DNA from: Nitrososphaeraceae archaeon
Lineage (GTDB): Archaea; Thermoproteota; Nitrososphaeria; Nitrososphaerales; Nitrososphaeraceae
DNA length: 56,682 bases
NCBI GenBank assembly: GCA_016782315.1
Contig: JADDOQ010000002.1
Span: 1-56,682, forward strand
Direction of reading: 5' to 3'
Within the stretch, counting starts at the first letter, position 1. Each line of letters opens with the position of its first letter. A program made the translations under genes and the position numbers. The notes beneath the pieces are model-generated. The model searched no databases and had not been told where the DNA came from. It saw nothing but the letters and a program-made list of their open reading frames with translations. Below are positions 14,591 through 30,278 of this stretch, piece after piece.

Positions 14591-15583
14591 ATGTCTGATA
14601 GGATAGACCAAAGAAATACGATACTTAATTTATACAATTCAGGAATTGATCCAGAAATCATAGCCTTGGAGTTAGACATCAACCAAGATACTGTTATGAA
14701 TGTAATAAAAAATGAGTCAAAGGTGAATCAAAAAAAATCCCCAAAAAACATGTCAAGTGTACTTTTAAACAAGTTATATCTTGATGCAGTCATTGATATC
14801 AACGAGATAATAAGCGACTCTCAAGTCAAAACATGGAAGGCTTTAAAATCAAAACCAGATTTTAACACATCCTTTAAGGACACTCAAAACATATTGGAGC
14901 AATGCGGCGAAACCAAAATCAATCTTGTAATTTTACATATTGATTTAGTAGGTTCTACAAGAATGTCTTTGAATTTACCTATTGAGAGATTGACAACTAT
15001 AATCAGAACATTTGCACAGCAAATGTCTCTTATAGTATCAATGTATGGCGGATTTGTATTAAAGTATATTGGAGATGCGGTTTTGGCATTTTTTGTAGTT
15101 GAAGACATTCAGGATAGAAGTATTCAAAACCAGCCAGAAGAGGCCGAGTCAAAAGATAATGATGATTTTTATCGTCTTCAATTTAGTAATGCGATAAGTT
15201 GTGCATATGCCATGATCAAGGTAATCCAGGAAGGCATCAACCCCATTTTAAGCCAGTATGATTACCCAGAACTTAAAGTAAGGGCAGGTATAGATTTTGG
15301 AGAAATCGCCATAGTTCAATATGGTTGGGATATTGACGAACACAAGGAAATAACCCTAAAAAAACCACATCTTGACCTTATAGGATACACTATAAGTATA
15401 GTAGTAAAAATGACATCACTTGTTGAACCCGATCATATAATAATTGGCCAAAAACTATTTGATAAATTAGATACAAAACAAAAAAACACTTTCAGGCAGT
15501 TACCTGCTAATCCAGATATATGGGGTTATATGCATAAGACTACCGGAGGAATATACAACCTATACGGTAACATAAAACAGTAA
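14591..15583 (+). CDS. Class III adenylate/guanylate cyclase-like protein with N-terminal HTH-like region
   Basis: 330 aa; VILHIDLVGSTRMSLNLP...GGFVLKYIGDAVLAFF...VRAGIDFGEIAIVQYG...DLIGYTISIVVKMTSL; N-term LNLYNSGIDPEIIALELDINQDTVMNVI is HTH-like. Confidence 0.85.
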   Translation: MSDRIDQRNTILNLYNSGIDPEIIALELDINQDTVMNVIKNESKVNQKKSPKNMSSVLLNKLYLDAVIDINEIISDSQVKTWKALKSKPDFNTSFKDTQNILEQCGETKINLVILHIDLVGSTRMSLNLPIERLTTIIRTFAQQMSLIVSMYGGFVLKYIGDAVLAFFVVEDIQDRSIQNQPEEAESKDNDDFYRLQFSNAISCAYAMIKVIQEGINPILSQYDYPELKVRAGIDFGEIAIVQYGWDIDEHKEITLKKPHLDLIGYTISIVVKMTSLVEPDHIIIGQKLFDKLDTKQKNTFRQLPANPDIWGYMHKTTGGIYNLYGNIKQ

Positions 15584-26080: not shown

Positions 26081-26884
26081 TTGTACAGTAATAGTTATAA
26101 TATTTTGACTGCAATTAATATTATGAATTTAACAATTGTTATCTTTTTTGCCATATTTTATCTTATTGGCACAAGTTTATCATTTGTACCTGTTTTTGGT
26201 CATGCGAGTCCTATTACTTATAACCCCAAACCCAATCAAATAATTAATTCAAAGCAACTGCTTCCGAATGATGTAACCATCACTTTTACAGAGAGTCCCG
26301 AACCGAGAGCAAGTAGCTTAAAAGTTATGGGCCCAAATAATGAACTGATAGATAATAATGATTTAAAAGTGTTGGAGTCAAGTAAATCTCTTTCTATTTC
26401 ACTTGATAAACCCAAAGTAATACCAGGAATTTATACAGTAAATTGGTTAGTTTTATCAAAAGCCGATGGTCACATCACCAAAGGCTCCTATGCATTTACG
26501 TTAGCTGAGAGCGGACAAAACCAAAACCAAAACCGACAACCAGCCACCAATGCCTCGTCAGAGTATTCCAAAAATATTACAGCTGATAATGTTATCTTAA
26601 ACTTTGATATATCACCATTTAAAGTAGGTCAAAACACATTCAATATTCAAGTTTCATATGTGAATGGTACAGCGGTTGAAAACATCAGGGACGTGTTTTT
26701 GGAATTTAACAATCCTGCTAAAAATTTAGGACCTATTGTTGATGTAATGGATAAGATAGAACCAGGAAAATACACTTCTACAGGGAGCTTCTTAAGTCAA
26801 GAAGGTGACTGGGAGATTAAAACAACAGCTCAAAGAATAGGAGAATATGACATAAATCAATTGATTAATGTGAATGTGACCTAG
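26081..26884 (+). CDS. Secreted CopC-domain protein with C-terminal YtkA-like domain
   Basis: 267 aa; signal peptide then HASPITYNPKPNQIINSKQLLPNDVTITFTESPEPRASSLKV...PGIYTVNWLVLSKADGHITKGSYAFTL (CopC); C-term DVMDKIEPGKYTSTGSFLSQEGDWEI (YtkA-like). Confidence 0.82.
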   Translation: MYSNSYNILTAINIMNLTIVIFFAIFYLIGTSLSFVPVFGHASPITYNPKPNQIINSKQLLPNDVTITFTESPEPRASSLKVMGPNNELIDNNDLKVLESSKSLSISLDKPKVIPGIYTVNWLVLSKADGHITKGSYAFTLAESGQNQNQNRQPATNASSEYSKNITADNVILNFDISPFKVGQNTFNIQVSYVNGTAVENIRDVFLEFNNPAKNLGPIVDVMDKIEPGKYTSTGSFLSQEGDWEIKTTAQRIGEYDINQLINVNVT

Positions 26885-27245: not shown

Positions 27246-28037
27246 CTACTTATTTAACCTTGATTCCAAGTCTTCAATTTTTTTTCTGATCTCTTTAATT
27301 TCTACCAAAATCTCTTTCTGTGTAACAGGGGTTGTAATTGTGTTTTCTATTTGCTTATATGCATCTTCTGATTTCTTCACAATTACTGCAACAAATATAT
27401 TGATTACAACAAATGTTCCAATCATGATAAAGCTTACAAAATAAATTACATATAACGGATTAACATTTGTTACATCAGACATTATTTCCACCCAGCCCTC
27501 CAAGGTCAATATTTGAAACAATGTTAAAATAGACCTTGGCAATGTTCCCCAGTTTTCTGCATCTACACTGTTAAACAGGTTATAGCCTGCAATACCATAG
27601 ATAAAGAAAATAAGAGACAGTAGCAGGAAAACATTTACCATACTTGGTAAAGATTTGATAAGTGTCATTACTACAACGGACATCTCCCTATATCGATTTG
27701 TCAAACGAACAACTCTTAACAGTCTAATTAACCTAGCTACGGTGGTGTAACCCCCAGAAAGAGGTAAAAGCGATACCACGATGATTGAAAAGTCCAAAAT
27801 ATTCCACCCATTTCTGAAATATTTTAACATATTGGGATAAGATGAGAATATCTTTAATGCAGCTTCAATTATAAAAATTGACAATACAAACGCGTTAATC
27901 AAATCAAACAGAAAAATATAATTTTTTAGTTCAGAAATTGTTTCTAATACCAATACTGCTGCTTGTACTAAAATAATTGCGGTGATGAAATTATTAAACA
28001 CACCATGATTGACTAATTTTTTTATCATAGCAGACAT
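27246..28037 (-). CDS. Single-domain voltage-gated cation channel (BacNav/Cav-like, 6 TM)
   Basis: 263 aa; S4 TTVARLIRLLRVVRLTNRYREM, pore ILTLFQILTLEGWVEIMSDV, S6 YFVSFIMIGTFVVINIFVAVIV, C-term coiled coil. Confidence 0.92.
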   Translation of the reverse strand: MSAMIKKLVNHGVFNNFITAIILVQAAVLVLETISELKNYIFLFDLINAFVLSIFIIEAALKIFSSYPNMLKYFRNGWNILDFSIIVVSLLPLSGGYTTVARLIRLLRVVRLTNRYREMSVVVMTLIKSLPSMVNVFLLLSLIFFIYGIAGYNLFNSVDAENWGTLPRSILTLFQILTLEGWVEIMSDVTNVNPLYVIYFVSFIMIGTFVVINIFVAVIVKKSEDAYKQIENTITTPVTQKEILVEIKEIRKKIEDLESRLNK

Positions 28038-28148
28038 TTTCTTAATCCTTTGTTTTATTGGGATAATATCTTTAACTCTATTTGGCCTTCTGTTAATCTT
28101 GAATACTCACGCAGAAAGATATAGACAATAAAAACAGTCAATTAAAAT

Positions 28149-30278
28149 TTATGGTTCTCTAATATTTTCAATTGCCTCCAGTAGCGCTTCGTTTTCTATT
28201 GGCTTGCGAAGAAACAAATTGTTAGGTATAATTTCACGGTTATTGTCTGGACTGATTTCGCCAGCAGTGAGAAAACAAACTTTCACTTTGTCATCCATTT
28301 TTCTTATTTCGTCATAAAGTTCAAAGCCACTCATATGTGGCATTTTTATATCTAGGAGTATCAGGTTGTATATGTTTTTTTTGTATTCTTTTAGTGCATC
28401 TAACGGATTACTAAATGCATTAACAATACACCCATTCTCTTCTAAAACTTTTTTTAGTGTTATGTTAATATCAAGATCATCATCTACTAATAATATCTTC
28501 TTGATATCGCCATATTTTGAAAACTCGGGATGAATAAACTTCATAATGTTTTTTTGCTCCTTTGGAATGTGAAAATAATCAAATGGTTTCAAAGACTGTT
28601 CATTAAATATTGGAAGAGTAAAGTAAAAGGTAACACCTTTTCCATTTTCATTATCCTCAAACCACAACTTGCCCCCATGTGATTCAATAATATTCTTTGA
28701 TATGAATAGCCCCAAGCCAGTCCCACCGTAAGAGCCTGTAGCAAATTTTTCAAACAGTTTTTTCCTTAATTCCGCATTTATACCAGAACCTTGATCCCGT
28801 ACGCTGATAATAACAAATCTTTGTTTTTCATTTTGGTGGTGGGTTTTTTGATGTTGTAAACCGTCCTCATCATCTTCAATTATTTTTAGATCTATATGGA
28901 TAAATTTTATGCCCTCTTCTGCCTCCCCGATACTTGATTTATTTGCATTACTCAAAAGGTTCGACAATACTTGGCTGATTCGGGTTTTGTCGGCTTCTAC
29001 AATGATTGGATCATAGTTATGGGTTTGCCCCTTGGCTTTGTAAATTAATTTCACAGAAGGCAACAATTCCCCCGCCCCCCTTATGCCGCCATTCTCAAAA
29101 TCAGAAATAGTGCTTGAAACAACATCACAAATATTGAACTTTTCTACCTTTAGGTTCAAGGTGTTACTTTCTATTTTCGATACATCCAAAATGTCTTCAG
29201 CAAGACGTTGCAGTTTTTTTGCATTTCTATAAATCACTTCAGCCATCTTTCGGTTATCCGATCCTTTGTCGTTAGAAGAAACTAACATATCGGATAATCC
29301 TATTATGGGTTGAATAGGGGTTCGTAATTCATGAGCGGCCACATTTATAAACTCCTTTTGCATTTTTCCCGATTCTTTCAGCTTTTCATTTTGAACCCTC
29401 ACGTGATCACTGCTTTTTTTTAGTTCAACATTGTATTGCAAACTAGATACAGCAAGAGCCACAATATTAACAAAATATGCCGCATCCTTGAGTACATGTG
29501 CCATATTGTGCGCAGTATCAAAAGATGTTGCAGAGTATGACATAATTATCTGGGAAAATATATCTAACGTGAGATAACCGACTAATCCCTTATAGAAAAG
29601 ATCCTTTTGTTTGTACAATTGCTTTTTATAGAAAAAGAACAAAGCAACTGAAAATAATATAAGGGGTGGAATTTCATAAGGCCTGTGCAAAGAGTAATCA
29701 TCTATTACACTTGCGGGCAAGATCAGGAAAATAGAGGCCAAAGCAATCCCAATAGAAAACAAAGAGAGAAGTATTAGATAATACAGTATTCTTTTTTGTA
29801 ACTTCTTGTTTGCCTTTTTTTGCTCAATTTGCTCTTCTTCTGATTGGCATAGTTCGCTTTCCCATTTTGACAAAGTCGAATATTTTATTATTGCGATGGC
29901 CAATAGGGTGCTTAGAAATATCCTCCCTGCAAACCAGGTTTGCGGAATAAAATACTTAATGAACATGGGGTCGCTGATTGCAACATAGGATATTATTACG
30001 TGTAGCAAATCAATTAGGGCACTAACAAGAAAACCCATTCCTATGAAAAGACTAAAGACATCATTTAACGTGCGGGCACGCGAAATATAATAAAACGACA
30101 AAACCACACCAAATACCACTGCAAATAACTCTATGTAGAAATGATGAACTGTGGATGTTACCCAAAGGTAAGGATTAGCGGCAAAAAAGGCAATTATTGT
30201 TAAAGGGATTGCGGGCAGAATGGTATATTTAAAAATAATTTCATGTTTATGATAAAGAGATGAAAAATTAAGAGACAA
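28149..30278 (-). CDS. Hybrid sensor histidine kinase (MASE3-like TM sensor + HisKA + HATPase + receiver)
   Basis: 709 aa; TM N-terminus (…VHHFYIELFAVVFGVVLSFYYISRARTLNDVFSLFIGMGFLVSALIDLLHV…), EFINVAAHELRTPIQPIIGLSDML, GTGLGLFISKNIIESHGG, receiver KKILLVDDDLDI...LILLDIKMPHMSGFELY. Confidence 0.92.
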   Translation of the reverse strand: MSLNFSSLYHKHEIIFKYTILPAIPLTIIAFFAANPYLWVTSTVHHFYIELFAVVFGVVLSFYYISRARTLNDVFSLFIGMGFLVSALIDLLHVIISYVAISDPMFIKYFIPQTWFAGRIFLSTLLAIAIIKYSTLSKWESELCQSEEEQIEQKKANKKLQKRILYYLILLSLFSIGIALASIFLILPASVIDDYSLHRPYEIPPLILFSVALFFFYKKQLYKQKDLFYKGLVGYLTLDIFSQIIMSYSATSFDTAHNMAHVLKDAAYFVNIVALAVSSLQYNVELKKSSDHVRVQNEKLKESGKMQKEFINVAAHELRTPIQPIIGLSDMLVSSNDKGSDNRKMAEVIYRNAKKLQRLAEDILDVSKIESNTLNLKVEKFNICDVVSSTISDFENGGIRGAGELLPSVKLIYKAKGQTHNYDPIIVEADKTRISQVLSNLLSNANKSSIGEAEEGIKFIHIDLKIIEDDEDGLQHQKTHHQNEKQRFVIISVRDQGSGINAELRKKLFEKFATGSYGGTGLGLFISKNIIESHGGKLWFEDNENGKGVTFYFTLPIFNEQSLKPFDYFHIPKEQKNIMKFIHPEFSKYGDIKKILLVDDDLDINITLKKVLEENGCIVNAFSNPLDALKEYKKNIYNLILLDIKMPHMSGFELYDEIRKMDDKVKVCFLTAGEISPDNNREIIPNNLFLRKPIENEALLEAIENIREP

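Follow-up and report, generated by a model that had tools for sequence, protein, structure and literature searches.

The voltage-gated channel CavMr of Meiothermus ruber carries the selectivity filter 183-TLEGWVD-189 and has a PCa/PNa of 218 (PMC7041947). Its ratio falls to 11.9 in the G4S mutant and 7.7 in G4D, whereas V6T and D7M retain values of 40 and 144, showing that Gly4 and Val6 both matter and that position 7 tolerates Met (PMC7041947). A sequence-only reading of the locus described here had invoked CavMr as the precedent for Gly4 being key to Ca2+ selectivity, and the published values support that precedent. NavPp is a Na+-preferring channel that Ca2+ blocks. When given the full CavMr filter (NavPp-Mr), it attains a PCa/PNa of 215, and the D4G change by itself yields only 41 and lets K+ and Cs+ pass (PMC7041947). 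In NavAb, the S178G substitution creates the filter TLEGWSM, but PCa/PNa stays below 0.01 and the channel is impermeable to Ca2+ (PMC12919392). Gly4 alone is therefore insufficient for Ca2+ selectivity, and the NavAb result implies that backbone context decides. An additional feature of CavMr, the disulphide of its L6 loop, is discussed in PMC10120453. The 2020 CavMr paper already stated that ancestor-like BacNavs (AnclNavs) occur in archaea (PMC7041947), and in 2026 CavMr was still described as the sole prokaryotic Cav to have been identified (PMC12919392). Our literature searches found no study of an archaeal channel of this group and no recording from any archaeal member.

The window, meaning the whole stretch of DNA that was analysed (56,682 nucleotides), contains a channel gene of this kind. 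The open reading frame starts with ATG, encodes 263 aa and matches Pfam Ion_trans with an E value of 8.3e-49, scoring 166 bits where the cut-off is 25. The gene, its parts and the region upstream are as follows.

27246..28037, minus strand: single-domain voltage-gated cation channel gene, 263 aa, coordinates including the stop codon
27693..28004, minus strand: voltage-sensor domain S1-S4 (residues 12-115), from invariant alignment columns and AlphaFold2 helices
27693..27749, minus strand: S4 helix (residues 97-115) with R102, R105, R108 and R111 at every third position, from the alignment and AlphaFold2
27333..27689, minus strand: pore domain, with the S4-S5 linker and S5 from residue 117, P1 at 166-177, the filter, P2 at 182-190 and S6 at 194-235
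27486..27506, minus strand: selectivity filter TLEGWVE (residues 178-184, Gly4 being G181), from the codons and the alignment
27252..27320, minus strand: C-terminal helix (residues 240-262) whose hydrophobic residues are regularly spaced, a putative coiled coil of the tetramer
28038..28149, minus strand: 111-bp gap between kinase and channel, its 3' 45 bases, with an AAAGGA ribosome-binding-like site among them, almost unchanged in the sister species
28149..30278, minus strand: MASE3-HisKA-HATPase-REC hybrid sensor kinase (Pfam domains), upstream of the channel

We aligned the window protein with sequences of NaChBac, NavAb and NavMs that had been verified against PDB entries. The four S4 arginines are in register with the NaChBac gating arginines, and E58 (S2), D82 (S3), the filter Thr, Leu, Glu and Trp, and N213 of S6 are likewise in register. 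F55, E58 and D82 of the voltage sensor occupy invariant columns. An AlphaFold2 monomer built from 48 aligned sequences has a mean pLDDT of 89 and superseded a poor model from 14 rows (pLDDT 73); it shows six helices, P1, P2, S6 and the C-terminal helix, the last of which aligns with the C-terminal helix region of NaChBac. The closest solved folds to this model are NavMs, NavAb and the engineered CavAb, with a Foldseek E value of 1.8e-11 to NavMs. Thus, the six-helix fold with a P1-filter-P2 pore and the S4 arginines at every third residue with S2 and S3 counter-charges, which mark the single-domain BacNav superfamily, are present, and the K+ channel filter TVGYG is absent, the filter being TLEGW. 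These data bear out the earlier claims of an intact single-domain six-helix channel (from the reading frame, the Ion_trans match and the AlphaFold2 model) and of an arginine-rich S4. The filter codons had also been read correctly: the DNA gives ttg ACC TTG GAG GGC TGG GTG GAA, encoding T178-L-E-G-W-V-E184 at 27506..27486, and the glycine assigned to filter position 4 passed the alignment check against the same three channels.

NaChBac, NavAb and NavMs share the fold, the gating arginines, the S6 Asn and about 33-35% identity with the window channel, but differ in having Ser4 filters (TLESWAS/SM) and one extra residue after the filter Trp. The residue count after this Trp in the window channel is of the AnclNav type, and NavPp and the TLEDWTD-type AnclNavs of Pseudomonadota and other phyla share this loop length; these proteins carry Asp4 and Thr6 in place of Gly4 and Val6. 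The filter itself also resembles that of eukaryotic Cav3 domain I (TLEGWVDIM, compared with TLEGWVEIM here), but Cav3 is a four-domain protein, and its best domain scores about 70 bits compared with 142 for NavMs. CavMr was represented by the Meiothermus sequence L068, in which the positions of the filter (183-189) and of G240 agree with the published CavMr numbering. CavMr is likewise a six-helix single-domain protein with TLEGWV followed by an acidic residue, and L068 is 36% identical to the window channel over 276 columns. It differs by an 18-residue insertion in the L6 loop that contains two cysteines and is absent from the window channel and from the other archaeal channels.

To place the window channel, we used a tree of 65 rows that includes 16 archaeal channels, with TLEDWTD rows standing in for NavPp, which is not in the tree. 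The 16 archaeal sequences group together as a single clade (100/100), which lies on the side of the Chloroflexota and Pseudomonadota AnclNavs (98/90) and apart from Meiothermus; the TLEDWTD-type AnclNavs of Pseudomonadota are on the neighbouring side of the tree. A clade of archaea plus Meiothermus, with CavMr as the nearest relative, is ruled out (AU p = 9e-6), as is a union of the archaeal rows with the canonical BacNavs (AU p = 0.001). The window channel therefore falls outside the canonical BacNav clade and has a TLE[G/D]W-type filter (TLEGWVE), as expected of the AnclNav group (Shimomura 2020), and it neither groups with Meiothermus nor has the Cys-containing L6 insertion of the CavMr clade. 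The comparison with CavMr made in the sequence-only reading holds for the filter and fails for kinship. The likeness lies in the filter and in membership of the same general group, as an ancestral or convergent trait, and does not reflect close descent.

Gly4 does not mark a clade. A single clade of all Gly4 channels is ruled out (p = 7e-9), and the tree has at least eight switches between Gly and non-Gly at filter position 4. Profile surveys of phyla, which we used for filter counts after setting aside a pattern scan that contained TLEGW and was biased, showed Gly4 in every one of 19 proteins from Chloroflexota and in all but one of 16 from the Meiothermus phylum; the best 30 loci in Pseudomonadota have Asp or Ser. 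Other channels noted were two actinomycetotal ones with TLEGW filters in longer reading frames of 545 and 688 aa (L084 and L074), possibly domain fusions, and three superfamily channels in a single alphaproteobacterial genome (G592), one TLEGWVE and two TLESWSM (L122, L124 and L125).

Positions 1-6 of the window filter are identical to those of CavMr, with Gly4 and Val6 aligned as in that channel, and position 7 has the conservative change of Asp to Glu. Among the intact archaeal copies only one departs from Gly4, and position 7 varies among E, D, N and I. This pattern fits the CavMr mutants, in which position 7 hardly matters, and is what would be expected if Gly4 is the determinant and position 7 is not. 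The exception, from another family of the order (L094, G196:C14:311666-312433), has the filter TLEEWSN with Glu at position 4 and offers a natural test of the Gly4 rule.

The best account of these observations, which we hold to be reasonably probable, is that the gene encodes a homotetramer-forming, voltage-gated, Ca2+-selective channel of the AnclNav group. The analysis directly shows the gene, its predicted fold, its voltage-sensor residues and filter, and its conservation and selection; the tetramer, the voltage gating and the Ca2+ selectivity are all drawn by analogy from CavMr and the BacNavs. Each gene product would be one subunit of a homotetrameric cation channel, in which depolarisation would move S4 outward and open the S6 gate. 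A ring of four Glu3 side chains would bind cations in the filter, Gly4 would provide a wide filter mouth, and Val6 and Glu7 would complete a CavMr-like lining, so that the channel would most likely favour Ca2+ (and Sr2+) strongly over Na+ and K+. As a guess at physiology, depolarisation may trigger brief Ca2+ entry that is reset by CaCA-family exchangers, of which the window genome has two genes.

Ca2+ selectivity in particular, our best prediction for this channel and one that we judge rather better than even, is favoured by the CavMr-like filter, the AnclNav loop length, the retention of Gly4 and the complete voltage sensor. NavPp-Mr shows that selectivity moved with the filter between AnclNav backbones, and the window filter on its AnclNav-type backbone should behave alike. 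The overall account is also favoured by the dN/dS values given below, by the two exchanger genes and by the only other Ion_trans match in the genome, which has the K+ signature TVGYGD. Against Ca2+ selectivity stand the NavAb Gly4 result, the absent L6 loop and the lack of grouping with CavMr; against the wider account stand the absence of any detected EF-hand pair from the window genome and the loss or decay of the gene in some species. The Ca2+ permeability predicted earlier from Gly4 thus keeps its CavMr precedent, but Gly4 by itself is not predictive.

The same evidence bears on the principal alternative, that the channel is voltage-gated but non-selective or Na+-preferring, with Gly4 widening the mouth and selecting no Ca2+ outside the CavMr backbone and its L6 loop. 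NavAb S178G behaves in just this way, NavPp-D4G is a milder case, the Cys-containing loop is missing here, and the repeated changes at position 4 on the tree point in the same direction. Three features set the window channel apart from NavAb S178G, however: Val6, an acidic residue at position 7 and, as in the AnclNavs, a shorter spacing after Trp. In addition, the full CavMr filter sufficed in NavPp. We regard a non-selective or Na+-preferring channel as possible but less likely, and retain Ca2+ selectivity as the prediction.

If it is Ca2+-selective, the window channel would be a second prokaryotic Cav, phylogenetically distant from CavMr, and the first recorded from Archaea as far as the literature searched shows. 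Its lack of the L6 loop, together with the range of filters that occur naturally in its orthologs, would then help to separate the effect of Gly4 from that of the backbone. To the earlier statement that AnclNavs occur in archaea, the present analysis adds one conserved clade in the Nitrosocosmicus order, with filter variants and set apart from CavMr, together with the absence of the CavMr loop from archaeal channels and a kinase link that is not conserved. The window channel is a good candidate for an archaeal voltage-gated Ca2+ channel and its chief value is as a test case in which filter variants occur naturally. We give an even chance to the broader proposal that true voltage-gated Ca2+ channels form a lineage of their own in ammonia-oxidising archaea, distinct from CavMr and naturally varied at filter positions 4 and 7 (TLEGWVE, WVD, WVN, WVI and TLEEWSN), and that voltage-triggered Ca2+ entry operates in Archaea.

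A possible link between the channel and the adjacent sensor kinase had also been raised. In such a signalling module, the MASE3 hybrid kinase would read or tune a Ca2+ or voltage signal, and the shared strand, the 111-bp gap and the preservation of gap and gene order in the sister species LB3_1 are consistent with it. However, LB3_1 is so close that gene order is collinear with the window over the entire stretch compared, and the adjacency therefore carries little functional weight. This kinase lies beside the channel in only one of 17 related loci examined, that of LB3_1; at the others the channel lies elsewhere and lacks it as a neighbour, and other species of the genus have it in a different, shared neighbourhood. 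The gap also carries conserved ribosome-binding-like and TATA-like stretches of its own, and its predicted RNA fold is not unusual (z -1.4). The link is thus unsupported, and we consider a joint channel-kinase module very improbable. On the other side of the channel, a gene for a CopC-YtkA type protein (26081-26884, plus strand) adjoins it on the opposite strand. A class III cyclase-like gene (PF00211, a weak match in the window copy) is found at 14591-15583 (plus strand), 12.6 kb from the channel, and at about 4-6 kb from it in seven related loci (including L024, L025, L028, L029, L033 and L035). As a Ca2+ target this gene was rejected, being too distant and its recurrence explained by species relatedness; it remains a lead.

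The host is an ammonia-oxidising archaeon of the Nitrosocosmicus genus group; genome placement and orthologs across the archaeal order agree with the earlier statement that the channel sits in an archaeon. Across the order, the gene occurs in 25 of 300 genomes, which belong to six of 64 genera and to two families, the second of which is inferred to be Nitrosopumilaceae. Among 349 genomes drawn over the phylum, six have the channel, all within the window's order. Twelve of the 15 genomes of the window's genus match it (11 intact), and three, which are draft genomes, have no match. Origin from a mobile element or phage was rejected: we found no phage matches and one plasmid match, which is distant.

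The dN/dS ratio is 0.17 between the window and LB3_1 and 0.05-0.13 among other close pairs, and the gene is under purifying selection. Because of this constraint relative to the sister species and the orthologs across the order, the window channel is far beyond chance. The least likely reading of all is that the gene was acquired horizontally, is now decaying and no longer has a function: its patchy distribution and the state of one complete genome of the genus (G004) are compatible with decay, but the window gene is intact, its dN/dS is low, and the voltage-sensor arginines and filter are retained across the archaeal clade. G004 has two copies (L034/L035). One, in the usual position for the genus, is disrupted by stops, frame breaks and an insertion; the other lies elsewhere, has diverged and lacks both the filter Glu (TLANWTD) and the C-terminal helix. 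Since some species of the genus have lost the channel or carry a decayed copy, it is not essential; the gene is maintained yet dispensable.
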